Below, in pieces: positions 4,885 to 24,434 of a stretch of DNA of 64,000 bases. Within the stretch, counting starts at the first letter, position 1. The number at the start of each line of letters is the position of its first letter. Under the pieces are notes generated by a model. The model was not told the DNA's origin, made no database searches, and saw nothing but the letters and a program-made list of their open reading frames with translations. The stretch covers positions 42,551-106,550 of the forward strand of contig NZ_JAIEME010000025.1 of the NCBI RefSeq assembly GCF_019752415.1, written 5' to 3'. A program made the translations under genes and the position numbers. This stretch comes from Nitrosomonas sp. (GTDB lineage Bacteria; Pseudomonadota; Gammaproteobacteria; Burkholderiales; Nitrosomonadaceae).

Positions 4885-6030
4885 TTACTGTTGTTTAGGC
4901 CGTATACCTACTTTGACTTGGATTGTTTTTTCCTGCTTATTGCGGATCACAGTGACCGCAACCGTGTCGTTGGGTGATAACGCCGCAACCCGATTAAGCA
5001 TGTCTGATGAATTCTTCATCGGCTTACCTTCGACAGCTATGATGATATCGCCAGGTTTGATGCCCGCCTTGTCTGCCGGACCATCTCTGAGCACACTCGC
5101 CACCAAGGCTCCGATTGGATTATCTAGGCCAAAAGATTCTGCCAGGTCTTGTGTCATATCCTGCATACTGACACCCAACCAGCCTCGAGTCACGCTGCCA
5201 GACTGGATAATTTGTTCCATGACCTGTTTAGCCACATGAATAGGAATGGCGAAACCAATGCCCAGTGAACCACCGCTGCTGGAATAAATCGCCGTATTAA
5301 TACCGATCAAGTTTCCAGACGTATCGGTCAGCGCCCCTCCCGAATTACCCGGATTGATCGCCGCGTCGATTTGAATAAAATCTTCAAAAGTATTAATCCC
5401 AACTCGGCTCCGGCTCATTGCACTGACTATACCCATGGTAACACTTTGCCCGACGCCAAAGGGATTTCCTACTGCCAGCACCACATCACCGACCTTAACC
5501 TGTTGTGACTGGCCAAAAGTAATGGCAGGTAATTCTTTCAGTTTTATCTTCAGCACTGCCAGATCTGTTTCAGGATCTGAGCCGATAATGCTCGCTTTGG
5601 CTTTTCTACCGTCGACCAAGGCAATTTCAACTTCATCCGCAGCTTCCACCACATGATGATTGGTCAATATATAGCCATTAGGACTGACAATCACGCCGGA
5701 ACCCAGACTTGATGTACGGCGCGCTTTGGTTTCAGATTGTTCACCAAAGAATCTGCGAAACATGGGGTCATTCAGCAACGGATGAGAAGGTTCTTCTTTT
5801 ATTTCTTTACGGGTGAAAATGTTGACAACGGATGGCATAGCTATTTCGGCCGCCTTGGAATAACTGTCTGATCTTTCCGCATCAACGACAGGTGCGGCCT
5901 CTTTGACCGTCACGATTTCTCCCCGGGGTTTCCAGGGAAGCAATTCAGGCCGGAGCGTGGAGATCACAAAAAAAATAGCCAGCAATACCGCAGCCGTTTG
6001 TGCAAAAATCAACCAGAGTCTGTACATCAA
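4885..6030 (-). CDS. Do/DegS-like periplasmic serine protease (trypsin-like + PDZ)
   Basis: TNHHVV, DPETDLAVLKI and NPGNSGGAL triad motifs; C-terminal PDZ; single N-terminal TM. Confidence 0.92.
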   Translation of the reverse strand: MMYRLWLIFAQTAAVLLAIFFVISTLRPELLPWKPRGEIVTVKEAAPVVDAERSDSYSKAAEIAMPSVVNIFTRKEIKEEPSHPLLNDPMFRRFFGEQSETKARRTSSLGSGVIVSPNGYILTNHHVVEAADEVEIALVDGRKAKASIIGSDPETDLAVLKIKLKELPAITFGQSQQVKVGDVVLAVGNPFGVGQSVTMGIVSAMSRSRVGINTFEDFIQIDAAINPGNSGGALTDTSGNLIGINTAIYSSSGGSLGIGFAIPIHVAKQVMEQIIQSGSVTRGWLGVSMQDMTQDLAESFGLDNPIGALVASVLRDGPADKAGIKPGDIIIAVEGKPMKNSSDMLNRVAALSPNDTVAVTVIRNKQEKTIQVKVGIRPKQQ

Positions 6031-8329: not shown

Positions 8330-9052
8330 TTATTTGCTCTTACTTGCGCTTTCCAGTTTTTCCTCAATCGCTGCCGCCGGAATCATGCCGCCCACAATCG
8401 AACCATCTGCAAAAACTAATGTTGGCGTGCCGCTTACTTTATTCTCTTGACCAGACTTTACCAGTACGTCCAAAGGTGTTTCGCAATCTTTACTCGTCGG
8501 CGCAACACCCTTCAGCATAAAATCATCCCAAGCTTTTATTTTATCATCTGAGCACCAGATCTTTTTGGATAACTCCATCGATCCTTTGAGCACCGGATAC
8601 AGCAAGGTATAGATCGTAACATTCGTCACATTGAGCAATTCTTTTTCCAATTGCTTGCAGTACGGACAATTAGGATCGGTAAAAATCGCCACTCGGCGCT
8701 TGCCGTCACCCTTCACGATCTTGATCGCCGATTGCAACGGCAAAGAATCTAGCGGAACACGTCGAGCTGCCTTGATCTCCTGAATCCGTTCATTGGTCAT
8801 GCTCGTCCGGGTCTTGGTGTCGATCACATGACCAAAAAAGAAATAATCGGCTTTAGCATCAGTATAAAACACCTCATCGCCCACAACCACTTCATACAAC
8901 CCTAAATAAGGCGTTTTCTTCACGCTCTCAATTTTACTATCCTCAAAATGAGGCTGAATGGCCTTTCTTAAAGCTGCTTCATCAGCCCAGATTGCTTCAG
9001 AAAAAAAACCAAATACCAAGATTGAAATGAAAAGCTTCCAGCGCATAGTCAT
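8330..9052 (-). CDS. dsbC: Thiol:disulfide interchange protein DsbC
   Basis: FTDPNCPYCKQLEKEL (CPYC active site), SGTPTLVFADGSIVGG; signal peptide. Confidence 0.93.
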   Translation of the reverse strand: MTMRWKLFISILVFGFFSEAIWADEAALRKAIQPHFEDSKIESVKKTPYLGLYEVVVGDEVFYTDAKADYFFFGHVIDTKTRTSMTNERIQEIKAARRVPLDSLPLQSAIKIVKGDGKRRVAIFTDPNCPYCKQLEKELLNVTNVTIYTLLYPVLKGSMELSKKIWCSDDKIKAWDDFMLKGVAPTSKDCETPLDVLVKSGQENKVSGTPTLVFADGSIVGGMIPAAAIEEKLESASKSK

Positions 9053-9078
9053 GATGACTCCAGTTTTAAAAATGTAAT

Positions 9079-10248
9079 TTAATTCAAAGCGTTCTGCATT
9101 AGTTGATTCTTAATCAGCGGCAAGTGATTAGTTATCTCAAGGCCTAGATTCCGTAACCTGGCCAGTGTCGGATTGGAATTGTTGAATAATTTCTGCAAGC
9201 TATCGGTCACTAACTCTAAAGCCAATATGTCTTCCTTGCGCGCCAGCTCGTAACGCCGTAATAGCATAAAATCACCGCAATCTGTTTGCAATCCCCGTGC
9301 GCCGAGTACCGCGGCAAGTTCTCGCGTATCCCGCAAACCCAGGTTAACACCCTGACCGGCCAGCGGATGTATGCCATGCGCTGCGTCACCGATCAACACC
9401 AGTCTTGGCTTGACCAATTTCTCCACATGCACAAAATTTAACGGGAAACCCACTGGCGGTGTAATCAGTTGTAATGCCCCCAGCGTATGCGAAGCGGCCG
9501 CTTCCACCCGCCGGCAGAGATCTTCCGCCGGTAAATTGCGCAGTATCTCGGCCTGCTCTTCACTGGTTGACCAAACCATGGATACCCGCTTATCCGGTAA
9601 TGGCAGCAACGCCAACACGCCATCTCGCCTGAACCATTGATGCGCAATATGACGGTGCGACAATTCCGCGCTAAAATTTGCCACCACACCAATCTGGTTG
9701 TAGGCGTGTTGTTTCACATCGATTTCAGCTTGCCTGCGCACCCAGGAATTTACGCCATCCGCACCTACCACCAATGCAGCCTGAAGCTGACTGCCGTCTG
9801 CCAATTGCACATCGACATGCGACTCCTGCCAGACAATTGCAGTACATTTTGCTGGGCAAAATATTTGCATATTCTCGTTCGGGGATTTAAGCACTTCCCA
9901 AACGGCTGTTTGCAGCTGGCGATTTTCCGCGATAAACGCAAGCTCCGATATGCCAATCTCATACGCGCTAAAATTAATGTGCGCGCTATTGTCATCACCA
10001 AATACCGCCATCTCATAAACCGGTGCCACACGTTCAGCTTCCAAGCGCTGCCACACCCCCAATTCTCCCAGAAAAGCCGCACTCCCCGGGCTGATCGCAT
10101 AGACCCGGCTATCCCAACTCTCATCTCGCGGCAATGGCATAGGTTCATGCGGCTCTATCAGCGCTATTTTCAATCCGCTATCCTTCAGCGCAGCCACCAG
10201 GCTTGCTCCAACGAGTCCGCCACCAATCACTATCATATCGAATTTCAT
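9079..10248 (-). CDS. UbiH/UbiF/COQ6-family FAD-dependent ubiquinone biosynthesis hydroxylase
   Basis: MKFDMIVIGGGLVGASLVAAL (GxGxxG), DGVNSWVR, LIGDAAHGIHPLAGQGVNLGLRD. Internal ATG at 10248 preferred over 10365. Confidence 0.9.
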   Translation of the reverse strand: MKFDMIVIGGGLVGASLVAALKDSGLKIALIEPHEPMPLPRDESWDSRVYAISPGSAAFLGELGVWQRLEAERVAPVYEMAVFGDDNSAHINFSAYEIGISELAFIAENRQLQTAVWEVLKSPNENMQIFCPAKCTAIVWQESHVDVQLADGSQLQAALVVGADGVNSWVRRQAEIDVKQHAYNQIGVVANFSAELSHRHIAHQWFRRDGVLALLPLPDKRVSMVWSTSEEQAEILRNLPAEDLCRRVEAAASHTLGALQLITPPVGFPLNFVHVEKLVKPRLVLIGDAAHGIHPLAGQGVNLGLRDTRELAAVLGARGLQTDCGDFMLLRRYELARKEDILALELVTDSLQKLFNNSNPTLARLRNLGLEITNHLPLIKNQLMQNALN

Positions 10249-10511
10249 AAAACTGATTATACAACCGCTTTGCAACGGGCGGGTAACACAAACTGCATAC
10301 TCGCTGCGCACAGGATTTTGTTCATTAACTCGACGAATCCGATGCCCGTGCAACTTAGTCAACAAACTTTAATCCTAAACACTGAATTAAAGTGCAAACG
10401 AACTGGTCTCAATCCCATGAAAACACGCATAAACCCTTGTCAAGTCACATTTTTGAGCTTGACAAACTATCCTCTCAAAGGCAGAATGCCGCCTCTTGCG
10501 TCTATGCATAT

Positions 10512-10587
10512 GGCGAATTAGCTCAGTGGTTAGAGCAGCGGAATCATAATCCGTTGGTCCCCAGTTCGAATCTGGGATTCGCTACCA
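10512..10587 (+). tRNA. tRNA with CAU anticodon (tRNA-Met or lysidine-type tRNA-Ile2; cannot be separated by eye)
   Basis: ggcgaattagctcagtggttagagcagcggaatcataatccgttggtccccagttcgaatctgggattcgctacca: 7-bp acceptor stem, D-arm, loop ATCATAA (CAT), T-arm GTTCGAAT, encoded CCA. Confidence 0.93.
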
Positions 10588-10593
10588 AATAAA

Positions 10594-10632
10594 ACAAGGG
10601 GTTATCTTAACAGACTAATCCCTTTTTCTTTT
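10594..10632 (+). terminator. Terminator downstream of the tRNA
   Basis: aaggggttatcttaacagactaatccctttttctttt: stem and T-run. Confidence 0.55.
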
Positions 10633-10969
10633 CTGTGGGGCACTGTTGGGGCCATCTCAAAAAACAAACCACAGAAAATTACTCATCCTTATACTTCCAT
10701 ACCCTCATACTTCCGCGTCTTATATGCTAGATAAGACACTGTTCAATCTTGTTTTTCATATCTTAACAAATCCACCACAAAACCCACAAAAGCACTCTAT
10801 TTTATTTTTAATAGCCCCATAGTTGCCCCATACAATAATTAATTAATTATATCTAATTGATAATTAATTACTGTACTTATGTTTACACGTGATTATATGT
10901 CCGTTGTTGCTATTTATGGTCACTATGTTGTAATCTGCTCAAAGTGATTAATCACTTGCAGGAGCAATT

Positions 10970-12049
10970 ATGGCAAATATCGAAAAGCGTGTTTCTAATG
11001 ATGGAAAAATCAGTTATCGGGTAAAGATAAGATTAAAAGGTTATCCAAGCCAATCCGCCACATTTGAACGCCTTACTGATGCGAAGAAATGGACGCAGCA
11101 AACAGAATCAGCAATTCGTGAGGGTCGCCACTTCAAAACCACAGAAGCGAAACGCCATACCCTAACCGAATTGATAGACCGCTATTGCCGGGATGTATTA
11201 GCTAAAAAAACAAAGAATGCCCGAGACCAAATACGGCAATTTGAATGGTGGAAAGCTGAAATAGGTAGTCATGCCCTATCAGATGTAACACCGTCTCTGC
11301 TTGTTCAGTACCGTGACAAACTAACTAATGGCATGACTTCGCATGGTAAGCTTCGCTCACCAGCTACCGTGAATCGGTATATGGCCGCCCTATCAGTTGC
11401 CTTCACTACAGCCGCAAAAGAATGGGGATGGATTGATGATAACCCCATGCGCAAAGTAACCAAGCCCAGAGAATCACGCGGGCGCGTTCGTTTCTTGTCC
11501 GATGAAGAACGTATATGCTTATTAAAAGTCTGCAAAGAATCCAGCAGCCCATATCTATACCCTGTTGTGGTGCTGGCATTGTCTACTGGAATGCGCCGAG
11601 GTGAAATTATGGGTCTGACTTGGGACGTGATAGATTTAAACCAAGGCCGTGCAATACTGCATGAAACTAAAAACGGCGAACGCCGCGCCGTGGCGATTAC
11701 TGGTCATGCTTTGGAATTATTAAAGGAATTGTCCAAAGTTCGCCGGATTGATAGCAATTTAATTTTTCCATCCAAGGAAAACGCACCACAAAAGCCACAG
11801 AAGCCTATAGATTTACGCACACCATGGGAAACAGCCGTAAAAAAAGCCGAGCTACAAGATTTTAAATTTCATGACCTACGTCATAGTGCTGCAAGCTACT
11901 TGGCTATGAATGGCGCAAGCCTAGCCGAAATTGCCGAAGTATTAGGACATAAAACCTTGCAGATGGTTAGGCGATACGCTCATCTATCGGAAGGCCATAC
12001 CGCCCGCGTAGTGGCTTCCATGAACGACAAGATTTTTGGAAACGTGTAG
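10970..12049 (+). CDS. Tyrosine recombinase / phage-type integrase
   Basis: ALSTGMRRGEIMGLTWDVIDL, FKFHDLRHSAASYLAMNGASLAEIAEVLGHKTLQMVRRYAHLS: catalytic R..HxxR..H/Y pattern. Confidence 0.95.
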   Translation: MANIEKRVSNDGKISYRVKIRLKGYPSQSATFERLTDAKKWTQQTESAIREGRHFKTTEAKRHTLTELIDRYCRDVLAKKTKNARDQIRQFEWWKAEIGSHALSDVTPSLLVQYRDKLTNGMTSHGKLRSPATVNRYMAALSVAFTTAAKEWGWIDDNPMRKVTKPRESRGRVRFLSDEERICLLKVCKESSSPYLYPVVVLALSTGMRRGEIMGLTWDVIDLNQGRAILHETKNGERRAVAITGHALELLKELSKVRRIDSNLIFPSKENAPQKPQKPIDLRTPWETAVKKAELQDFKFHDLRHSAASYLAMNGASLAEIAEVLGHKTLQMVRRYAHLSEGHTARVVASMNDKIFGNV

Positions 12050-12054
12050 TTGCC

Positions 12055-12624
12055 ATGTCTGAAAATATAACTCAAAGCAATCTCGAACTATGGGATGTAG
12101 TCGAAGCAATTAAACAAATAACACATGACGGTCTGCTAGATACAATTGAAATTATGAATCAACCTAATTTTTTCGTAGATCGATATGTTCGAGGTGGCAT
12201 GCTGAGAGCTGAGGCTGAAATCAGAATTAGCGGAATGATTAATATTGCAATAAGGACAGGTCAAATTAAAGACCTTGACACACCAGCAAATTGGATTGCA
12301 TGGGCAAAGCGCAATGGTTTCGCTACTGATCATCTTAAATCTTCAAACCAAGAAGAAAAAACTGATTCAAAATCAGATAATAAAAAGGAAAATGAGTTAC
12401 ATAGTTTGATAGAAGATATCTATAAAAGCCTTGGTTGCCCAAAAAACAATGGAATTATTTGGAAAACACTGAAATCAGATCAAAAAGATAAGGCATATGA
12501 TAAAAATGAGATTGTGCAGGAAATTACAGGAGATATTATTTATTGGACTTCCCGCCGTGGAATAGAGCAAACGATGAAACGAAAAACTTTTGATAATTTT
12601 CTTTCAACATTACGAAAAAAATAA
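12055..12624 (+). CDS. Hypothetical protein, follows integrase
   Basis: 189-aa ORF starting 6 nt after integrase stop; no recognised motif. Confidence 0.6.
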   Translation: MSENITQSNLELWDVVEAIKQITHDGLLDTIEIMNQPNFFVDRYVRGGMLRAEAEIRISGMINIAIRTGQIKDLDTPANWIAWAKRNGFATDHLKSSNQEEKTDSKSDNKKENELHSLIEDIYKSLGCPKNNGIIWKTLKSDQKDKAYDKNEIVQEITGDIIYWTSRRGIEQTMKRKTFDNFLSTLRKK

Positions 12625-12753
12625 TTTATCCCGGCTACCGTCCCGCCTTCCCGATGTGATGTTAGCTGGGAAATGTGCAGTGTAGAGTCTTAGCCAGAAC
12701 ATCCTGTTACATAGCAATCTTGCGCCGTAACGGGTAACTGAAAAGGATTTACG

Positions 12754-13041
12754 ATGCATAATAATATTACCGTAACGCAAGCTATTAAATCAGCTTATCC
12801 CGATTTACCTTCACAACCCCGCACACTGTTGACTGTTCGCCAGTTCAGCGACAAACATTCGGCTTTCACGCAAGGCGCAATCCGCAATCTAATTTTTTTA
12901 GCTGAAAGTAGAAAAACATCAAGAGGCATTATCACAGGCAATGGTCTGAATATTGCCCTGGTAAGAATAGGCCGAAAAGTGCTTATTGATGAAGCCAAGT
13001 TTTTTCAGTGGATTGATGAACAGCAAGAAATCAGCAAATGA
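12754..13041 (+). CDS. Small DNA-binding/excisionase-like hypothetical protein
   Basis: 95 aa; TVRQFSDKHSAFTQGAIRNLIF..GRKVLIDEAKFFQWI resembles an excisionase/wHTH pattern; overlaps the next ORF. Confidence 0.55.
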   Translation: MHNNITVTQAIKSAYPDLPSQPRTLLTVRQFSDKHSAFTQGAIRNLIFLAESRKTSRGIITGNGLNIALVRIGRKVLIDEAKFFQWIDEQQEISK

Positions 13042-13337
13042 AGGCACTTGCTCAATCACTTCAGAACGTTAAGGCTTATATTCGCCCCGTTGATTTTTAC
13101 CGCAGCGAATTACCCGCAATGCCGCCGCAGCGTGGCAGTGGATGGCGTGATGGCGGATTATGTCCATTTCATCTTGATAAGCACGCCGGAAGCTTTCGAG
13201 TAAATCTTGAAACCGGTGCTTTCCTTTGCTTTTCTTGTGGTTCCAAGGGTGGGGATATTATCGCATTCATTCAACAGCGAGACGGCCTGAGCTTTCCGGA
13301 AGCAGTGCAAAAACTATCGAATGAATGGGGGTTATGA
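13038..13337 (+). CDS. CHC2 zinc-finger (DnaG-like) primase domain protein
   Basis: GGLCPFHLDKHAGSFRVNLETGAFLCFSCGSKGGDIIAFIQQRDGLSFPEAVQKL: CHC2 zinc ribbon. Confidence 0.85.
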   Translation: MKALAQSLQNVKAYIRPVDFYRSELPAMPPQRGSGWRDGGLCPFHLDKHAGSFRVNLETGAFLCFSCGSKGGDIIAFIQQRDGLSFPEAVQKLSNEWGL

Positions 13338-14545
13338 TGCAGGGCATACCCGAAAAATTCAAAGGCAAACTGCGCCGATTTGTTTGGGAGTATCGAAACC
13401 CTCAAAGTGAAACACTTGGTTATGTTGCCCGCTTTGATGATGATGGCAAGAAGAAAGAGATTGTGCCCTATTTTAAACGCAGCAACGGGCGCGACTGGCA
13501 GCATGGCAGCGCAATCGAACCGCGCCCATTGTTTGGATTGGATGTATTAAATCAAGCTGAACTTAAGCGTGCTGTATTCATTGTTGAAGGCGAAAAAGCC
13601 GCCACAGCCTTGCAATCTTTGGGATTGGTGGCGATTACTTCGCAAGGCGGTAGCAAAGCAGCCCTTAAAACAGACTGGAAACCATTAAATGGGCGTGAAT
13701 TCGTTTATATGCTTCCTGACAATGATGAGGCTGGGGAAAGCTATATTAAGGTCGTGGCTGCAATCCTGATGAACCTTGATAAACCGCCTACGATAACCAT
13801 AGTACGTTTACCCAATCTTCCGCCTGCTGGTGATGTTGTTGACTGGATAACATCTAAAATTGTTGAAGTTTTACTGGATTGGGATGGTTATGAGCCAATA
13901 CCAAAAAGTGTGATTGATAATGGCACTTTGCTGAATGATTTTAAAGAAGCAGTAAAACAGCATAGCGAACCAGTGCCCGATGAATGTAAAGCTGATTCAG
14001 AGCAGCTAAATATGAACAACTGGCCAGCGCCTATCAGCTTGGAATCCGTCAGGCTTCCGCCATGGCCGGATGATGTCTTTCCTGGCAGCATTCAGGACTT
14101 TGTAACTGCTTTAAGTAAATCCACAGAAACCCCGCCTGAATTATCTGCAATGATGGTGCTGGCAGCAATCAGCGCCGCCGCTCAAGGCAAATACCGGGTG
14201 CGTGTTAAAGCTGATTATTTTGAGCCTGTAAATATTTGGACATGTGCAGCGCTTCCACCGGGTAGCCGGAAAACAGCCGTACAAATGGCAGCAACTGCGC
14301 CGTTGACCAAATGGGAAAAACTGCAACGTGAAGAATTAGAGCCTGCAATTCAGAAAGCACAAGCCGATGATGCAACCATACGCGAACAAATAAACTTCTT
14401 ACGCAAACAGGCAAGTAAAGCCAAGGGCGCAGAGTTTGAACAGCTAAAAAAAGAGATTGCCGATATTGAATGTTGTAGGGCGGGTTATTTGGTATGGGCG
14501 AAGAATATGAAAAATATTAAATCATGCATTTATTGTTTATGTTAG
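13325..14545 (+). pseudogene. Toprim/DUF3987-like primase-helicase protein, 3'-truncated
   Basis: Toprim-like VFIVEGEKAATALQSLG and YMLPDNDEAGESYI; DUF3987-like WPAPISLESVRLPPWP...PPELSAMMVLAAISAAAQGKY...PPGSRKTAVQM (A..GSRKT Walker A-like); ends abruptly after ~14470 in unrelated sequence. Confidence 0.7.
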
Positions 14546-14581
14546 AGCAAAACTAATCTCATTTATTTCTAATTTGAACAA

Positions 14582-15937
14582 ATGGAAGAATTCGATAACC
14601 AATCAGAAGCTCTAATTACTGCAGCCAAAAATGAATTGGCGCGTCGAGGAATGCCGTTTTCAGAAAAAAATTTTATACGCTACGTAAAAAGTGGTAATGC
14701 TAATGCGGTGCAACTGTATTTACGTGCGGGTATATCACCAAATGCAAGACTTGATACGGAAAGTGCCTTAGCCGCCTCAGCGAATCATGGCCACAGGCAG
14801 ATAACAGAACTACTTCTTAACGCTGGCGCTAATCCCGTTTCTTTGCTGGATGGTCTTAAAATCAGCAAATCTTCACGAGACGTTTGGGATCGACTATCGA
14901 GTCTTACAGGGGTATTTACCTTTCTTTCTAGCTTGTTCATTGCAGCTATTGGGTGGCATTTTACTAGCTCCTATAACGAGCGGCAACTAGCACTGACAAG
15001 TTCACAAGTGCGTCAAGAACAAGCGAATAAGCAATATCAAAATCGATTATTAGAAATGCAAACCGTAGAAAAGATGATTCCCCACCTTATTAAAGATGAA
15101 CCGAGCAAGCAAGCAGCTGTAATAGCTATTAGTGCTTTAGCATCACCCGAAGTCGCCGCACGAGTAGCAGAAACATATGGAGGACAAGGATCTATTAATG
15201 CATTAGCGCAGTTGGCAAGAACTGACTCGGCAAATTCATCAGCTCCCGCCATCACGGCTCTGACTAACATTGCGTCACGTGAGTCGGAATCTTATAAACC
15301 GGCTCATGAGGCACTTGGCAGCGTGCTTGAAGGGAGAGATAGAGCAATCGTAAAGCTTTTGGAAAATGAAGTAGCCATTTGCAATGGTTTCGTAATTGGA
15401 GGGAAGCAAGGTTGGGTTGTAATACCAAGATACTGCATTGATCGAACTAAATCGACAAAGTCCTTAATGTCGATCCAATTTGGGGATGGAAAGAAAGCTC
15501 AGGTCACTTCTCGAAGAAATAGTCCAGAAGGTTTGCTCGTTTTTCTGAAGCTAGATGCTGAATCGCCTACTTTTTTACATCTATCTAGAAAACAATTGCC
15601 AGTTGGAAGTGCTGTTTCTCACATCTCCTACCATCTAAACTCTTTAAACACTAACGACCGTAGTCTACTTAGTATAGTTCTGGGGGTAGTAGTTGAGTCT
15701 GGAAAAATGTCATTTCTAGATGTAGTTTCCCGCGATAAGGATATTTCTGCATATGGCTTAAAAGTAAAATTGAATATCAACAATCAAGACTATCTTTTAG
15801 GTACAGGAGGGGGTCCACTTCTAGATGACGAGGGAAATGTTGCATGTATGACGTTTATGCGTGATGCAAAAGGCAATGAGCAATGCGTTTCTGCAGAAGT
15901 GATTTCAACTGCTCTCAGCTCATTAAAGGCTGAATAA
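14582..15937 (+). CDS. Ankyrin-like / TM / coiled-coil / ARM-like / degenerate trypsin-like protein
   Basis: N-terminus: NANAVQLYLRAGISPNARLDTESALAASANHGHRQITELLLNAGANP (ankyrin-like); TM FTFLSSLFIAAIGWHF; C-terminus GFVIGGKQGWVVIPRYCID...YLLGTGGGPLLDDEGNV resembling trypsin without the triad. Confidence 0.7.
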   Translation: MEEFDNQSEALITAAKNELARRGMPFSEKNFIRYVKSGNANAVQLYLRAGISPNARLDTESALAASANHGHRQITELLLNAGANPVSLLDGLKISKSSRDVWDRLSSLTGVFTFLSSLFIAAIGWHFTSSYNERQLALTSSQVRQEQANKQYQNRLLEMQTVEKMIPHLIKDEPSKQAAVIAISALASPEVAARVAETYGGQGSINALAQLARTDSANSSAPAITALTNIASRESESYKPAHEALGSVLEGRDRAIVKLLENEVAICNGFVIGGKQGWVVIPRYCIDRTKSTKSLMSIQFGDGKKAQVTSRRNSPEGLLVFLKLDAESPTFLHLSRKQLPVGSAVSHISYHLNSLNTNDRSLLSIVLGVVVESGKMSFLDVVSRDKDISAYGLKVKLNINNQDYLLGTGGGPLLDDEGNVACMTFMRDAKGNEQCVSAEVISTALSSLKAE

Positions 15938-16079
15938 TATAATACTTTAGTTTGAAATAAATCAAATTTTTAACTACAGCATACAAATGCAAGTAAGTTA
16001 TATGCGGAAACTGATGTTGAAACAAATTCAACAATTTACCCAAAAAGTTATTGCAATTAGTATTTATTCTATTTATGAA

Positions 16080-16272
16080 TCGAATAGGACGCAAATTATT
16101 ATACTTTTGTCCTAATAAGTGCCAAATAAGACGCAAAAAAATTCTATTTTCGTCCTATTTTTTGATATTTTGTACCAAATTAGTTTTTGCTTGATATTTT
16201 TTCTAACACATTGGTTCATGCTCTTTTCGCGCTTTTTTTCTTTCTATTTATTTAGTACCAAATAGGACGCCC
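16080..16272. repeat. Dispersed direct/inverted copies of an AATAGGACGC-like motif in an AT-rich spacer
   Basis: aataggacgc at 16083 and 16261, aataagacgc at 16125, inverted gtcctatt ~16152, inverted-like gtccta ~16109. Confidence 0.55.
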
Positions 16273-16403
16273 CCTCACAGATTGCAAGCTGTGGCAAGGT
16301 ATTTTCTCGGTTACTTTCAATAAAAAACCGCCCTATCTGTCCATATACAGACTAAAATAAAAAAAGTAGCAGAAAATTTAATTATCAATGGATTATTTTC
16401 TCA

Positions 16404-16769
16404 ATGAAGAAAAAATTATCACTTACATTAATAGCAGCAATCCTCCTGCTTAATGGATGCGGATCAGTCAGAGAAAATAGAATCAGACAAGATGTATTAT
16501 CTGACAACAGCATGCCGGAAGAAATACGCAGGGCGATCGATCTTAAGGAGCTGGTCGTTGGCATGACACAAGAACAAGTGATAGCTTCCTGGGGGCTTCC
16601 TTGTAAATGGTGTTATGGAACGCGCAAAAGCGCAAGTGGAGACACATGGGAATACCATCTTCCCGGCGCTGATTTTTTAGTGGTTGGCGCTGATTTTTTG
16701 GGTGTTGGAACCGGAACTTATGTGTACTTTGATAGCAGCCAAAAACTTAAGCACTGGTCCCAAAAATAG
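16404..16769 (+). CDS. Small lipoprotein, BamE/SmpA-like
   Basis: Lipobox LLLNGCGS; VVGMTQEQVIASWGLPCKWCYGTRKSASGDTWEYHLPG. Confidence 0.6.
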   Translation: MKKKLSLTLIAAILLLNGCGSVRENRIRQDVLSDNSMPEEIRRAIDLKELVVGMTQEQVIASWGLPCKWCYGTRKSASGDTWEYHLPGADFLVVGADFLGVGTGTYVYFDSSQKLKHWSQK

Positions 16770-16822
16770 AACTGGTATTCCGTGCTAGAACCCTTTCTTT
16801 AGCGCAATCCCCTGAATTGACT

Positions 16823-18302
16823 TTAATCTGACAGCGCCGCTGCAATTTCTCTGAAGCTGTTCAGCCCGGCCTCAAGATTCTCGATGATTTCACCCGCCAG
16901 CACATCCGGCTCGGGCAGATTGTCCAAATCGGCCAAACTCTTATCCTTTAGCCAAAAAATATCCAGACTGGTTTTGTCGCGTGCGATGATTTGCTCATAA
17001 CTGAATTTGCGCCAGCGGCCCTCCGGATTGCTTTGCTCGTTCCATGTCTCCTTGCGCTCGTGGCGGTTCAGCGGGTTATAGCAAGTGATGAATTCCTGCA
17101 AATCCTCAAAGCGCAGCGGTTTCTTTTTTAACGTGTGATGGATATTGGTGCGGTAATCGTAATACCAGACTGCTTTTGTCCACGGTTCTTTGCTGGCTTC
17201 CCGGTTATCAAAAAACAGCACGTTTGCTTTCACGCCGTTGGCGTAGAAAATGCCGGTAGGCAATCGCAAGATCGTGTGCAAATCGGTGGTTTCCAGTAGT
17301 TTCTTGCGTACTGTTTCCCCCGCCCCGCCTTCAAACAGCACATTATCCGGCACCACCACCGCAGCCCGCCCGGTTGTTTTCAGCATGGTGCGGATATGCT
17401 GCACGAAGTTGAGTTGTTTGTTGGAAGTCGTTGCCCAGAAATCCTGCCGGTTATAAGTCAGATCGTCTTTTTCCTGTTCCCCTTCATCATTGGTGAAACT
17501 CATCGCGCTCTTCTTGCCGAACGGCGGATTCGCCAGCACGTAATCGAAGCGGCGCCCGGAATCAGCCACTAGCGCATCATTGGGCGAAATCATGCTATCG
17601 CCGTCGATCTCGCCAATGTTATGCAAAAACATATTCATCAAAGCGAGTCGGCGTGTACTCGCGACAATTCATTGCCGAAAAACGTTTCGTATTTGAGAAA
17701 TGCTTTTTGTGTTTTATCCATCGCATGCTCGGCGACCAGAAAATCATACGCCGCCAGAAAGAATCCGCTTGTGCCGCACGCCGGATCGGCAATGGTCTTG
17801 CCGGGTTCCGGGCGCACGCATTGCACCATTGCCCGGATCAATGCGCGCGGCGTGAAGTATTGCCCTGCACCGGACTTGGTATCTTCCGCGTTGCGTTCCA
17901 ACAGTCCCTCGTAGATGTCGCCCTTCACATCAGCGCCCATCGTCACCCACTGGGTTTCGTTCACCATATCGATCAGGCGGTACAGTTTGGCCGGGTCCTG
18001 GATTTTGTTTTGCGCCTTGGTAAAAATCGTCCCCAGCATTCCCGGCTTTTTGCCCAGCTCCATCAGCAGCGTCACATAATGCACCTCCAGTTCCGCGCCA
18101 CGCTTGAGCTTAAGGCTTTGCCAGTTGTACTCGGCAGGAATATCCACGGTGCGGTTATACGGCGGCTGGCTGTATTCATCCGCCATCTTCAGGAAAATCA
18201 AATACGTGAGTTGCTCCAGATAATCGCCATAACCCACCCCGTCATCGCGCAACGTGGTGCAGAAACTCCAGACTTTTGAAACGATGGAGCAGTTGCGTTC
18301 AT
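16823..18302 (-). pseudogene. hsdM: Type I restriction-modification methyltransferase subunit HsdM, split by frameshift(s)
   Basis: ORFs 17638..18327 and 16823..17641 overlap by 4 nt; together they give N-terminal HsdM, DPACGTSGFFLAAYD (SAM) and FDYVLANPPFGKKS (NPPF). Confidence 0.88.
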
Positions 18303-18321
18303 GTCTTTGCCCCGAATACTT

Positions 18322-18350
18322 CGTCATTCCCGCGTAGGCGGGAATCCAGC
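18322..18350. repeat. Palindromic repeat (family A half-site)
   Basis: cgtcattcccgcgtaggcgggaatccag. Confidence 0.8.
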
Positions 18351-18351
18351 C

Positions 18352-18555
18352 TTACACCAAGTCCGGCCATAAATCTTTCCATGTCGGATTCATCTTTTCG
18401 ATCAAATTTATTTTCCATTGTCTATTCCAGCTTTTTAAGCTGCTTCTCGCGTTGAATCGCTGCCAGACTCGTTGAATCAGATTACTGGTTACTCCGATAT
18501 ACAAAGTGCCGTTATATTGGCTCGCCAGAATATAAACCGCAGCTTGTTTTTCCAT
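18352..18555 (-). pseudogene. GIY-YIG nuclease-like fragment with internal deletion
   Basis: MEKQAAVYILASQYNGTLYIGVTSNLIQRVWQ then WNRQWKINLIEKMNPTWKDLWPDLV: both ends of a short GIY-YIG protein without the middle. Confidence 0.7.
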
Positions 18556-18607
18556 TATGCAACCGTCCTCGTTTTTTTCACAGGCAAGGAATCAGCCCTT
18601 AATCAAC

Positions 18608-18637
18608 ATGGATTCCCGCCTGCGCGGGAATGACGGC
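18608..18637. repeat. Palindromic repeat (family A half-site)
   Basis: catggattcccgcctgcgcgggaatgacgg. Confidence 0.8.
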
Positions 18638-18662
18638 AAGGGCGCCCTTGCTACTTTCGACA

Positions 18663-18728
18663 GTTATTACCCTCTCTATTACCCTTACTAAAGGGTAATT
18701 ACCCTTACTAAAGGGTAATTACCCTTTC
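18663..18728. repeat. Tandem palindromic TTACCC.../GGGTAA repeat at the Fic stop codon
   Basis: tattacccttactaaagggtaattacccttactaaagggtaattaccctttc: 20-nt unit attacccttactaaagggta repeated, each unit an inverted repeat. Confidence 0.8.
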
Positions 18729-19765
18729 TTTTTCCATCGAGCCGCTGGACCTCTGCCCTGGCATTCGACTGCGTTTGCATTTTGCTGCTCGCGCAAAACA
18801 CGACGCACCATGTCTTTGCTCACACCGGGACAAGACTGCTCCACCTGAGCCACAGTAAATTCGCCCACAAAGCGGTCGATAGCTGCCAACACCAGATTGG
18901 TTTTCGAGCCGCGTGGCGCTTTCACTTCACCCACACACTCAGAAAATTCGCGGTAAGCCATCTTGAGAATGGACAACACGTAGTTGATGTAAGGCCACGG
19001 ATCATGCTTGCCATCATGCCAACCCTGCGAGCTGTGCTCCAGCGTCTCGTAATAGCGATTCTTGTTTTCTTCGATCAAACGCTCAAGGCTGATATAGCGC
19101 CCCACCTCATAGCCCGATTGATAACACTGAAGCAAAAGCGCCAACCGCGACACGCGCCCGTTGCCATCGCGGAAAGGATGAATGCACAGAAAATCCAGAT
19201 TGAATGCCGCCATCGCAATCAGCGGATGCGCCCAACGATCATCCAGGCAATGCTGCCAATCAGTAACCAGCTCCATCATTGCGGCAGGGGTGCCCGCCGC
19301 AGACACCGGGCGGAAACGCACCCGTTCACGACCATTCGCATAACGCTCGATGATGTCGCCGTCTTTTTCCTTGTATTGGCCCGCATCCCAGATTTGCCCG
19401 CGTGCCAGCCGGTGCAGCTCGCATATCGCCGCCTCGCTCACCGGCATGTGCGCAGCCCCTTCATGAATGAGCTTCAACGCATCGCGATAGCCGCGCACCT
19501 CTTCCTCGTCGCGATCCCGGAACAAAGGATTGGCCGCAACCAGCACCTCGCGCACCCGCGACGGATCAACCGACACGCCTTCGATACGGTTGGAAGAAAC
19601 CGCGCTCTCGATCAGCGCATGCTCGCGCAGGGTTCTCAGCCGCTGCGGCGACTGCTGCGTATAAAGCGCCTGCTTGCCGCGGAATTCGCCGAGATCGGCG
19701 AGATACCAGGATGTGCTTGCGGGAATGGAAAAATCTTTTAAAGCAAAAAGGTGCAGCGTGTTCAT
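18719..19765 (-). CDS. Fic family protein (class II-like, N-terminal inhibitory motif)
   Basis: HPFRDGNGRVSRLALLLQ (Fic HPFxxGNGR) and SAVSSNRIEGV (inhibitory-helix-like); C-terminal wHTH-like. Confidence 0.92.
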   Translation of the reverse strand: MNTLHLFALKDFSIPASTSWYLADLGEFRGKQALYTQQSPQRLRTLREHALIESAVSSNRIEGVSVDPSRVREVLVAANPLFRDRDEEEVRGYRDALKLIHEGAAHMPVSEAAICELHRLARGQIWDAGQYKEKDGDIIERYANGRERVRFRPVSAAGTPAAMMELVTDWQHCLDDRWAHPLIAMAAFNLDFLCIHPFRDGNGRVSRLALLLQCYQSGYEVGRYISLERLIEENKNRYYETLEHSSQGWHDGKHDPWPYINYVLSILKMAYREFSECVGEVKAPRGSKTNLVLAAIDRFVGEFTVAQVEQSCPGVSKDMVRRVLREQQNANAVECQGRGPAARWKKKG

Positions 19766-21417
19766 GTCGTTTTCCTTTTTGTCTTGAGCGCAGTATCAGC
19801 CCGCTCCGCCTTGATGCGCGTCAGCAGCGCCGAAGCAGGTTCGTCATTCGGGTCTTGCGGCACCAGTTGGCCGGAAAAAGCTTTTTTCAGGATGGATTGG
19901 CGCAGGGCTTCGGCTTGTTGTAGGGAGGTGGTGATGGTTTGGTCGAGTTGGTCGGTTTCGGATAATTGTGTGTCCAAAAGCTCCACGATTACTTCTTGTT
20001 CTTCTGCGCCACAAATAGCGACAAGCACTGAGCCCAGCATCTCTTGATTAACTGTATTCTGCCCGGCACTTGAAACCTTGTTTAGTTCAACATACCGCCT
20101 AACGCTCAGAGTGTTAAAAAAGTGTTGTAAATAGATAGGAGAAATAATTTTGTTAAGTAACCTATAGCGAATAAAGTGATCGCAGTATGCAACTTCCATG
20201 TCTTCTTTTATCGAAATTATCCTCCCAACCAAATCTGCGCTCCCATTAACACGAATGCAAATTAAGTCATTTTTGAAAAGTCTGTAATTATTAATCTCAT
20301 TTTCAGTAAGCAATATTTTTCGTGGGTTATCGAGAGATATTTTCTGGTCAGTGATGTCCGCCAGTCTTAAGACAACAAGTTCTCTTCCTGTTTCGCCACT
20401 TCTTTTAGAAATGCCATTTTGTGAGCCTACGGTTAATTCACCATATTTAACCCACCCCCATCCCTCCGGCAATTCAGGTAATCCGGCCAGTTCTTCAGCA
20501 GTGAGTGGCGGCAAGGATTTAGGGGGTTTGGGTTTTGAAATCCCCCCTCGCCCCCCTTTTTCTAAGGGGGGAATGTGCGCGGTGCTGGCTGGCTTCCCCC
20601 TTTGTAAAAGGGGGATAGAGGGGGATTTTTCCCAGTCGGCGAGTTGTTGCTGGTAGCGTTGCGCGCGCTCTTGCTGGATGCGTTTCAGCAAGGCTTCGGC
20701 GGTTTCGAGGGGTTTGTCATTCCCGCGAAGGCGGGAATCCATGTCGTTCAAAGGCTGGGCCCCCGCCTTCGCGGGGGTGACGTTCCGCTCCGCGCGCCAC
20801 TGTGCAGTGAGCTTGCCTTCGAACGCGTGCTTCAGCAGCGCTTGGCGATACACTTTGAGCTGTGATTGGGCGGTTTTCAGGTTCTCGATGCCCTTGTCCA
20901 GCTCGGAAAATAGTTCTTCGATTTTGGCGACGATGCGGTATTGTTCTCTAAGTGGAGGAAGCGGGAAATCCAAATCCTTTAGTTGCTTCTTCGTTATCCC
21001 TGAAATGGTTGTTCCACGCCCATCAAATTTTAAGAATTGAAGTTTATAGCTAAGAAGATAGAGTGTGTATTCAGGAAATATCAGCTTTGGATTCTGGATT
21101 AATCCTTGCAAGTCTTGACTGAAACAAATTGGTTCTTCAGCGATTGCTATTTTTCCAAGTCCAACACGAGTTACAACTAGAAGAGTTTTGGCTGGAACTC
21201 TGTTGGTTGTACTTCCAGAGATACCTTTTTCAGTAACGTACTTCCGAATATTTATCTGACGCACACCTTCAATATCAGCACTCGTAATCCAAGGGATGTC
21301 GCCGTCCCAGTAACCAGGAATTTCGGTTGAAGGGGTGCCGCCGCCAATTACCTGATATACCTCACCTAAAGTGGTTAGCTCCCAAGTCTTGTGCAAATCC
21401 TTTGTAAAGCTACTCAT
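19762..21417 (-). CDS. hsdS: Type I restriction specificity subunit HsdS with repeat-derived linker
   Basis: WELTTLGEVYQVIGGGTPST, PLPPLREQYRIVAKIEELFSELDKGIENL, second TRD PEGWGWVKYGELTVGSQNGISK. ATG 21417 preferred. Confidence 0.93.
   Translation of the reverse strand: MSSFTKDLHKTWELTTLGEVYQVIGGGTPSTEIPGYWDGDIPWITSADIEGVRQINIRKYVTEKGISGSTTNRVPAKTLLVVTRVGLGKIAIAEEPICFSQDLQGLIQNPKLIFPEYTLYLLSYKLQFLKFDGRGTTISGITKKQLKDLDFPLPPLREQYRIVAKIEELFSELDKGIENLKTAQSQLKVYRQALLKHAFEGKLTAQWRAERNVTPAKAGAQPLNDMDSRLRGNDKPLETAEALLKRIQQERAQRYQQQLADWEKSPSIPLLQRGKPASTAHIPPLEKGGRGGISKPKPPKSLPPLTAEELAGLPELPEGWGWVKYGELTVGSQNGISKRSGETGRELVVLRLADITDQKISLDNPRKILLTENEINNYRLFKNDLICIRVNGSADLVGRIISIKEDMEVAYCDHFIRYRLLNKIISPIYLQHFFNTLSVRRYVELNKVSSAGQNTVNQEMLGSVLVAICGAEEQEVIVELLDTQLSETDQLDQTITTSLQQAEALRQSILKKAFSGQLVPQDPNDEPASALLTRIKAERADTALKTKRKTT
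20536..20640. repeat. Palindromic repeat pair inside hsdS coding sequence (family B)
   Basis: aatcccccctcgcccccctttttctaaggggggaatgtg...ttccccctttgtaaaagggggatagagggggattt: two inverted hairpins read in frame as SPSIPLLQRGKPASTAHIPPLEKGGRGGIS. Confidence 0.85.
20714..20786. repeat. Palindromic repeat element inside hsdS coding sequence (family A)
   Basis: gtcattcccgcgaaggcgggaatccatg...gcccccgccttcgcgggggtgacg; read in frame as NVTPAKAGAQPLNDMDSRLRGNDK. Confidence 0.88.
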
Positions 21418-24232
21418 CAACCCACCAGCACTTCATTCAATTCATCCAACAACGGGGCTCCATCCTTGCCCCAAACAACTGATGCATCCTCCCCAATCCG
21501 CCTTGTGCGTCGAGCGGCGCCATTTCCAAGTCGCCGCGTTCAATGTGGAAGGAGTTCGCAACGTGATCGCGGATCATGTGCAACCAGTGCATTTGTTCTT
21601 CGTTGAACTTCTCACCGCTGCCGGCGTGGCGTTGCATAATCCAGCTTTGGAAATTGCGGCGCACGGTGTCGTCGAAGGGGGTTAGGATTTTGTCCCAGCC
21701 GCATACACGGCGAATCAGTGCGACCAGTGTGGTGAGTTCATTGACTGGATTTCCGCCTGCCCCCCGCCTTTTCGAGGGTGACAGGGAATGCCGGGATTCC
21801 AGTTGTTGATACGCTTGCCACACGCGCAGCGGCACGAGTTTGGGTTTGTCGGTTTTCAGTTTATCCAGCACTTGGCGGATCAGGGCATAGCTGAGTTCGC
21901 GCCTGCGATACGGCTGGCTGAAAAAGATGGTCAGTGCGGCGATGTTGTCCTGATTCGATTTCAGGTAACCGGCAAATTCATCGGTTAAAGCTTGCGCATT
22001 ATTGGCGGCGTCTTTGTCCCATTCGGCGCGCAACACTGTGTCGATGTTGTCGTGGTCGATGGTTTGTTCCTTGTCGCGGCGGATGGATTCGATGAGTTCG
22101 ACCAGTTCGCCGTTCAATACTTTCGCGGCTTCAGTTACTAATTGCTGTTGCGCCTGTTGGCGTTTGTCGTCGCCGGGGTCTGAGCCGATGGGGAGCTTTG
22201 CCAGTTCCAGCGCACGGGCTTCGATGTTGTCGGCGTCGATTGCGCTGAATAATTTGCCGACAAACTGGGTGAGTTCCATACCGCCGGAGAGTTCGCGGAT
22301 GCGGCGCTGGTCATCGGTATCGAGTTGTTTGTTGAGCCGCGCCAGGCGACCGGCGAGCGAGCTGACAGTGTCTTCATCGGTTGCACCCATCATCACGCTC
22401 ATCGCCAAATCCTTGAGTGGCACGCTGGGTTTGGTAATGAGCGGCTGGCTGGCGGTCTTGAGCGATTGGGTGACGCCGATGGCATCGACGATCACATAGT
22501 GCGTTTTGGCGCTGACGGCGGAGGGCGTGACCTTTTTCAGGTCATCCTTGTCCAGCGTGCGCGTGCCACGGCCTTTCATTTGCTCGAAGTAGTTGCGGCT
22601 TTTCACGTCTCGCATGAACAACAGGCATTCCAGCGGCTTGACGTCGGTGCCGGTGGCGATCATATCCACAGTGACGGCAATGCGCGGGTAATATTCATTG
22701 CGGAATTGCTGCAACACGGACTTGGGGTCTTCCTCGGTTTTGTAGGTGAGCTTTTTGCAAAAGGCATTGCCCTCACCGAATTCCTCGCGCACGGTCTGGA
22801 TGATGTCGTCAGCATGGCTGTCGGTTTTGGCGAAGATCAGGGTCTTTGGCACCTCGCGGCGTTCGGGAAAAATCTCCGGCAGCTTGTCGCGGAAAGTGCG
22901 GATGACAGTGCGGATCTGATCAAGATTGATAATGTTGCGATCCAATTGCGTGGCGGAATAGGCTTCGTCTTCGTCCTGCATCTCCCAGCGCTTTTTGCGC
23001 GTGAGCTTTTCGCGTTTTTCCACCTGTTGCTTGGCGGCGATCTGCGCGCCTTGCTGGGTGATCTGTGTTTCGATCACGTAGACCTCATTGCCAACGTTGA
23101 CGCCATCGGCCACGGCTTTTTCGTGGCTGTAATCGCTGACTACGTTTTTCTTGAAGAAGCCGTAAGTGCGATTGTCCGGCGTGGCGGTGAGGCCGATCAA
23201 GCTGGCATCGAAATAGTCGATGACTTGTTGCCACAGGTTGTAGATGGAGCGGTGGCATTCGTCGATAAAGATGAAATCGAAGAATTCCGGCGGGACTTTT
23301 TCGTTATACACCACGGGCATCGGCGTTTTGGGTAGCGCCAATTCTGCGGGGTTGATTTCTTCGGCGGCATCATCGAGCGGCGTGTCTTTCAGGATGGAAT
23401 ACAAGCGCTGGATGGTGCTGATGCACACTTGGCTATCCTTGGCGACGAATGAAGATTTGAGCCGCTGCACGTTGTACAGCTCGGTAAACTTACGATTATC
23501 GTCGAGCGGCACATACGACATCATTTCCTGTTCAGCCTGCTCGCCAAGATTTTTGGTATCGACCAGAAACAGAATGCGCTTGGCATCCGCGTATTTGAGC
23601 AGGCGGTAAATAGAGGTGATGGCGGTGTAGGTTTTGCCCGCACCGGTTGCCATTTGAATCAGTGCACGTGGTCGATCTGCCTTAAATGAGACTTCCAGAT
23701 TGATGATGGCGATTTCCTGACAATCGCGCAGGTGCAATTCCCTCGCGGGCAAATGATCGGGATTGAGCAGCGGAATGTGGTGCAGACGTTCGCGCAAACT
23801 GATACCTTGTGCCATCCATTCCTTCAGCGTTTCCGGGCGATGGAAGCAGAACACTTCACGCGAGCAGGGTTTGGGATCACGACCATCGGTGAAGCGGGTG
23901 ATGATGCCGGTGCTTTGGTAGAGAAAAGGTGACGGTTTTTTGTTATTGATCCACTTGAGCGTAGCCGCCGCGTAGTCTTCAGTTTGCGCTTCATGAGCAG
24001 TGAGCCGTTGACCTTCTTCTTCACGTTTGGCTTCGATTACGCCGATTGCTTTTTTATCCACGAACAGCACGTAATCCGCCGGACCGGCATCGGTCTGGTA
24101 TTCACGCACCGCTTGGCCTAATCCAACATTCAGATCGATCTTTTTGGCTGATTGAACAACCCAGCCCGCTTGCCTAAGCAATGCATCAATGTTATCGCGG
24201 GCTTTTTGTTCCGGATTCTGGTTTTCAGTCAT
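21417..24232 (-). pseudogene. hsdR: Type I restriction endonuclease subunit HsdR, nearly full length, apparent frameshift near C-terminus
   Basis: Helicase motifs MATGAGKTYTAI, FIDECHRS, LTATPDNRT; N-terminal nuclease domain ADYVLFVDKKAIGVIEAKR; start ATG 24232. ORF track ends at 21437 with a non-canonical tail. Confidence 0.88.
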
Positions 24233-24434
24233 ATTCACCACCAAGCAACCATTTGCTTTTACCTGTTCCACCTATTCATTCAGCACATGATAGCGCACGG
24301 CGTTTAAAAAGCCACGAAGTACCGTGCTGCAAAAGGAGATACTGCAAGCATATTTAAGGATTCATTGTGCAACCCATAAGTAATCCTTCTCCATGAGTAA
24401 ATCTGATAATATTTTTATTTCAGGATGAGAACCC

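Follow-up and report, generated by a model that had tools for sequence, protein, structure and literature searches.

The window analysed here, a 64,000-nucleotide stretch of Nitrosomonas sp. contig NZ_JAIEME010000025.1, carries a small mobile element at a tRNA-Met gene whose last gene encodes a protein of 451 aa with ankyrin units, a transmembrane (TM) helix, an armadillo-like region and a chymotrypsin-like domain that has lost its catalytic residues. We tentatively favour the view that this gene is cargo of a small tRNA-associated integrase-primase element and that its product is a membrane-anchored pseudoprotease serving as a binding or adaptor protein. Possible, if less probable, is that it is a pseudogene in the making: a former membrane protease, captured by a decaying element and now without active site or function. 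The window copy is probably one of these two, a binding-only adaptor or a decaying gene, and the evidence below is weighed mainly between them.

Domain layout and catalytic positions

When the bases of the ORF were shuffled the longest stop-free run was 169 codons, against 451 in the real sequence, and the codon-position G+C (0.53/0.42/0.31) resembles that of neighbouring genes. The absence of any stop or frameshift, together with this normal composition, argues against decay. The ORF and its parts are as follows.

14582..15937, +, ORF of 451 aa in an uninterrupted frame, encoding the ankyrin-TM-armadillo-pseudoprotease protein
14666..14842, +, ankyrin units, residues 29-87 (Pfam and PDB matches)
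14894..14965, +, TM helix, residues about 105-128 (hydropathy, and conservation with the L022 and Salipiger homologues)
15050..15331, +, alanine-rich armadillo/HEAT-like helical region, residues 157-250 (homologue alignment and profile match)
15347..15919, +, chymotrypsin/HtrA-like domain without catalytic triad, residues about 256-446 (Pfam, AlphaFold2 and Foldseek)
15431..15433, +, Tyr284 at the catalytic His position (alignments)
15533..15535, +, Leu318 at the catalytic Asp position, or E316 in an alternative alignment (alignments)
15806..15808, +, Gly409 at the catalytic Ser position (alignments)

An earlier note, made by reading the sequence without database searches, had described N-terminal ankyrin units, one TM helix and an ARM-like region, and each of these was recovered. 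Residues 63-85 match Pfam Ank (E=6.8e-4), residues 35-84 match Ank_2 (E=1e-3), and the ankyrin stretch matches PDB ankyrin designs with E values down to 6.5e-10. The peak hydropathy window covers residues 105-123, and the position of the TM helix is conserved in two homologues. A profile of the TM+armadillo module built from three homologous sequences matches PDB designed armadillo proteins (E=3.5e-8); Pfam Arm/HEAT matches to this region are sub-threshold only, and the coiled-coil stretch is a low-confidence long helix in the structure model. AlphaFold2 prediction of the whole protein from a two-sequence alignment gave a pLDDT of 41, and this model was set aside. Topology was considered by eye from the flanking charges: an additional hydrophobic segment at the N terminus of the Salipiger homologue would place its protease in the cytoplasm, while the protease domain of the window protein would lie outside if its ankyrins are cytoplasmic. 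The scanned region contained no promoter-like site on the coding strand of the gene and no terminator-like site.

For the C-terminal domain, Pfam Trypsin_2 matches residues 267-420 at E=3.7e-4, under the gathering score. AlphaFold2 modelling of residues 245-451 from a 28-sequence alignment gave a pLDDT of 81 and a pTM of 0.81; the predicted fold is that of chymotrypsin, with the caveat that the alignment was padded with HtrA-like sequences, taken from viral contigs and from the window's DegQ-like gene (4885-6030). Foldseek matched the model to HtrA1, Rv3671c, DegP, DegS and MucD at probability 1.00 with query TM-scores of 0.64-0.75, and the RsgI9 S1C domain was also among the matches. Independent support for the fold comes from homologues that align over the whole TM-to-C-terminus length and carry Trypsin_2 (E=1.6e-19 and 5.5e-19). 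When the window domain was compared directly by hhalign with its counterparts in the two homologues, no significant match resulted (probability 1.6), so homology of the domain to these relatives rests on colinearity, Pfam and the model. The AlphaFold/Foldseek check proposed in the earlier note agreed with its chymotrypsin-fold assignment. The domain has kept its match to the fold profile and models well, which counts against the pseudogene reading.

The replacement of all three triad positions, likewise claimed from inspection, stands on alignment. The catalytic His motif reads IPRYC where the homologues have TAGHA and TTKHV, and the nucleophilic Ser motif reads GTGGGP where they have GFSGAP and GMSGSP. 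The catalytic Asp falls on L318 in two alignments; one alignment has a gap there and pairs the Asp with E316. The His-Asp-Ser triad of an active S1/HtrA-type protease is therefore lacking, and because Ser and His are both lost, serine-protease chemistry should, to judge from the sequence, be abolished. The structural glycines and the GxGGGP loop are kept despite the loss of Ser, which again speaks against simple decay.

Relatives and closest known systems

The TM+armadillo module is very rare. Besides the window protein we found two relatives, one of 345 aa in an uncultured Chromatiaceae genome (L022/L055) and one of 389 aa on a Salipiger plasmid (WP_066110834). Both have the same TM-armadillo-protease order, an intact H/D/S triad and no ankyrins, so the death of the protease and the ankyrin fusion are specific to the window copy. 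On these alignments the dead state is not a family trait, and both homologues look like active membrane-anchored proteases; this favours decay. The earlier note had stated that its interpretation would fall if the homologues were ordinary active proteases outside defence or mobile contexts, and in part this is what we found, the two having intact H/D/S residues and Trypsin_2 matches of about 1e-19. Window, L055 and Salipiger proteins share a signature, consisting of a TM helix with D.WD...G...A.I...T...R and alanine-rich helices with QT....I..L..D, followed by the Trypsin_2 domain.

The module of the window protein is 42% identical to that of the Chromatiaceae homologue and 28% to that of the Salipiger homologue (45% and 30% over residues 157-250 alone), whereas the protease domains are 22% and 19% identical. 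Between the two homologues the values are 42% for the module and 27% for the protease domain. In all three proteins, by this comparison, it is the protease domain that changes fastest; the dead copy seems to exceed the others in this by a small margin. That it is the most divergent part of the window protein supports decay and counts against a cargo pseudoprotease; that the frame has stayed open across 58-72% divergence of the core module, with coding composition, counts for one. The dead triad is known from a single copy, which also counts against this reading.

The TM+armadillo profile proved specific, recovering only the known members, and gave no further one when run against the phylum (399 genomes), the order (300) and one family elsewhere in the phylum (199). 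With the full TM-to-protease length as profile, nearly every genome searched matched, almost always via the protease part, so that this profile was useless for delimiting the family. Scans of viral contigs revealed no relative of the TM-armadillo-protease family, and phage records no match to the whole window protein or to the TM+armadillo piece of a homologue. Searched at the protein level, 100 relatives of the host yielded ankyrin matches only; the absence of the gene from all 100 is a further point for decay. The TM + armadillo-like + trypsin family appears undescribed in Pfam, NCBIfam and PADLOC, and in the literature available as open-access full text.

In NCBIfam both homologues match the MarP family best (1.7e-11 and 9.6e-18), with scores of 43.8 and 64.4 bits against a cut-off of 250 bits for MarP NF033740; the window protein gives no match. 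Its structure is a variant of membrane-anchored HtrA-like proteins, in pseudoprotease form and with ankyrins added. MarP/DegS-type proteases, the nearest by Foldseek and NCBIfam, likewise have a TM anchor followed by an S1-type chymotrypsin-fold domain. The window protein differs in its ankyrin units, its armadillo-like region and its missing triad; even its active homologues score far under the MarP cut-off, and no PDZ domain was found. MamO, a functional HtrA-type pseudoprotease (PMC4794232), is a precedent for an HtrA-type fold that lost its activity and was given a new role (PMC4794232), but it is a magnetosome protein that keeps His and Asp and has Thr225 as nucleophile, whereas the window protein has lost His and Ser.

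In vWA-MoxR conflict systems nearly all trypsin domains in the effector position are catalytically inactive, and they are proposed to be peptide-binding or dominant-negative (PMC7159879). The ternary systems of this kind likewise place an inactive trypsin fold in a multidomain protein in a conflict-type context (PMC7159879). The window gene, by contrast, stands alone: the element has no vWA, MoxR or VMAP gene, and the neighbouring ORFs are integrase, primase pieces and restriction-modification (R-M) genes instead of adjacent MoxR and vWA genes. Trypsin-like domains also occur in an immune context in nuclease-protease pairs and in Avs1, Hachiman, Lamassu and DRT (PMC12799240); beside the window gene no MBL nuclease partner was found, and its active-site residues are missing. 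The Chromatiaceae domain matches the RT-Protease_XI profile (2.2e-12) and, weakly, that of Avs1b (1e-4).

The homologues share no neighbour genes. The Chromatiaceae gene comes after a Ser/Thr kinase gene and PAAR, gp25 and baseplate J genes; L055 92-8945 reads as a phage-tail-like injection locus, then the kinase, then the apparently active homologue. The Salipiger plasmid carries IS3 transposases, and a type I-C cas8c gene lies about 9.5 kb from the homologue. An ORF around position 1501 of L002 (genome G038) encodes the pre-ankyrin/ankyrin unit of residues 15-89 of the window protein together with a TM segment and what by eye is a TIR domain; within this genus the ankyrin unit apparently behaves as a mobile module.

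The element and candidate roles of its last gene

The other features of the element and its borders are listed here.

10512..10587, +, tRNA-Met gene adjoining the element (ARAGORN)
10632..16279, no strand, inserted mobile element of about 5.65 kb (comparison with sister genome G008)
10970..12049, +, tyrosine integrase, 359 aa (Pfam Phage_integrase 6.7e-36; phrog_1 integrase 9e-74)
12055..12624, +, element ORF, 189 aa (no Pfam, PHROGs or NCBIfam match)
12754..13041, +, small element ORF, 95 aa (no Pfam, PHROGs or NCBIfam family)
13038..13337, +, CHC2 zinc-finger primase piece, 99 aa (Pfam Zn_ribbon_DnaG 1.7e-15)
13325..14545, +, truncated Toprim + DUF3987 primase/helicase gene (Pfam DUF3987 9.2e-23)
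16256..16264, +, TACCAAATA, a weak candidate attR core (matches 10583-10591 at the tRNA 3' end)

In sister genome G008 (L089) the counterparts of window positions 9001-10631 and 16280-16901 are only 35 bp apart, an empty site, and the left flank is 93.6% identical to the window. Because both flanks are joined there with 35 bp between them, we place the insertion at about 10632-16279. An integrase, an adjacent tRNA-Met gene and an empty site in a relative are what is expected of an integrative element at a tRNA, and the tRNA-linked integrase element described in the earlier note is thereby corroborated. Its "primase remnants" are more exactly a CHC2 zinc-finger ORF and a Toprim/DUF3987 gene truncated at 14470. 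The DUF3987 match in the window copy spans only positions 2-111 of 364, and by blastn four related elements of the same genus (L110-L113) match the window exactly to 14470 and no further. The primase/helicase is intact, at 717-720 aa, in two related elements; in that of G019 a transposase-like ORF interrupts it. The pseudoprotease gene is the last of the element, with 111 bp between the breakpoint and its start. Directly beyond the breakpoint, at 14470-14490, stands TGTAGGGCGGGTTATT, which we take to resemble the start of a common short palindromic repeat and to be a possible recombination point.

The far border is less clearly marked. The TACCAAATA repeat is 9 bp only, and a shared 9-mer arose in 244 of 5000 shuffles (about 5%). 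No second tRNA-derived att site was found in the window or the assembly at up to 2-3 mismatches, and the window holds no direct repeat of 20-24 bp at this border. The related element of G026 (L110, 1301-8649) is complete at 7.3 kb: each border (1301-1351 and 8599-8649) has one copy of a direct repeat that takes in the tRNA 3' end and measures at least 51 bp. Near its far border, at the position corresponding to our gene, it has an HSDR_N restriction-type gene (Pfam 2.7e-18). A related element in L112 with a homologous integrase adjoins tRNA-Lys (1004-1079) instead of tRNA-Met, an indication that more than one tRNA may serve this family of integrases.

The damage to the host element, with its truncated replication gene and no convincing attR, supports decay and counts against a cargo pseudoprotease. 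The lack of promoter-like or terminator-like sites and of defence matches beyond the ankyrins also counts against the cargo reading. The HSDR_N gene in the matching distal position counts for it, as do the colinear homologues, the supported fold, the replaced catalytic positions and the empty site in G008, and the distal position itself suggests a benefit to element or host, as in P4-like satellites (PMC9122126). The defence hotspots of those satellites are likewise small integrase-primase elements at a tRNA with a variable gene (PMC9122126), although no P4 structural or capsid-size genes were identified in the present element.

If the gene is functional cargo, it would go back to a TM - armadillo-like - HtrA/MarP-like protease core to which an N-terminal ankyrin unit was added and whose catalytic residues were lost. 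What is left of the protease fold, including its substrate groove, would probably serve at the membrane to bind a partner protein or a peptide, and further partners may be bound by the ankyrin and armadillo-like parts; all three parts of this single-pass protein, the dead protease included, have the look of surfaces for binding proteins or peptides. The inactive trypsin domains of vWA-MoxR systems (PMC7159879) and MamO (PMC4794232) are published models that bear on such a role. The product might serve the element or the host in a conflict such as phage defence.

A more specific form of this explanation, an anti-phage system in which, during infection, the membrane-bound sensor or adaptor acts alongside a host protease or effector, we consider unlikely. 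The distal cargo position in an integrase-primase element, the HSDR_N gene at the matching place in G026, the proximity of the Salipiger relative to cas8c, and the known role of active trypsin-like proteases as bacterial immunity effectors (PMC12799240, PMC13236601) all point towards it. Against it, there is no conserved partner gene, the homologues are few and in unrelated contexts, and the R-M operon lies outside the element. Among PADLOC and NCBIfam defence families the protein matches only the ankyrin stretches of PDC-M72A and MzaA, and by the tests run it is in no known defence family; no direct sign of an anti-phage function turned up, and position in the element is the one thing that makes a defence role plausible. 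The suggestion in the earlier note of a sensor or scaffold, possibly anti-phage, is partly borne out: the membrane anchor, the dead chymotrypsin-like domain and the location in a tRNA-linked integrase element stand, while the active-looking homologues weaken it. The R-M genes lie outside the element, the PADLOC matches are confined to the ankyrin stretch and the homologues have no neighbours in common.

More doubtful still is a phage-unrelated membrane stress or signalling protein like MarP, DegS or the membrane-bound anti-sigma sensors, its dead domain sensing a ligand, for although MarP is the top NCBIfam family of both homologues, DegS, Rv3671c and the RsgI9 S1C domain are in the Foldseek list and a Ser/Thr kinase gene adjoins the Chromatiaceae homologue, the genes are carried by a mobile element and a plasmid, have no fixed chromosomal place and are absent from relatives. 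A long shot, and the least probable of these proposals, is the full scenario of a satellite-borne, membrane-anchored ankyrin-armadillo pseudoprotease that derives from an otherwise active, undescribed TM-armadillo-trypsin family, present on a plasmid and beside an injection-system locus, and has a non-catalytic part in phage defence as sensor or decoy.

Should the dead protease be functional, it would add to the rare HtrA-type pseudoproteases carried by mobile elements and would identify an apparently undescribed small TM + armadillo-like + trypsin family, whose active members lie one beside a kinase and a phage-tail-like locus and the other on a plasmid. It would also make it possible to test directly whether the inactive peptidase domains of conflict systems act as peptide-binding sensors. 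Should it be decaying, it would show a cargo gene and its element degrading together.

The adjoining type I restriction-modification locus

The type I R-M genes occupy 16823-24271 on the minus strand, outside the element. We considered the operon as part of the element and rejected this, since G008 has the sequence from 16280 onward beside the tRNA; the R-M genes that the earlier note had counted towards a defence island are not element cargo. HsdM (16823-18327, minus strand) is split into two overlapping ORFs near 17640, within the N6_Mtase domain, which indicates a frameshift or a sequencing error. The HsdS ORF (19762-21420, minus strand) reads through REP-like repeat DNA at 20713-20741, a repeat also present at 18320-18348, and contains a PPLEKGGRGGI segment, apparently between the two specificity halves. 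Within the operon lies a gene for a Fic/DOC protein (18719-19765, minus strand; PADLOC SoFic match E=5.3e-33), and between it and HsdM, at 18678-18717, is a perfect 20-bp tandem repeat of the palindromic unit ATTACCCTTACTAAAGGGTA.
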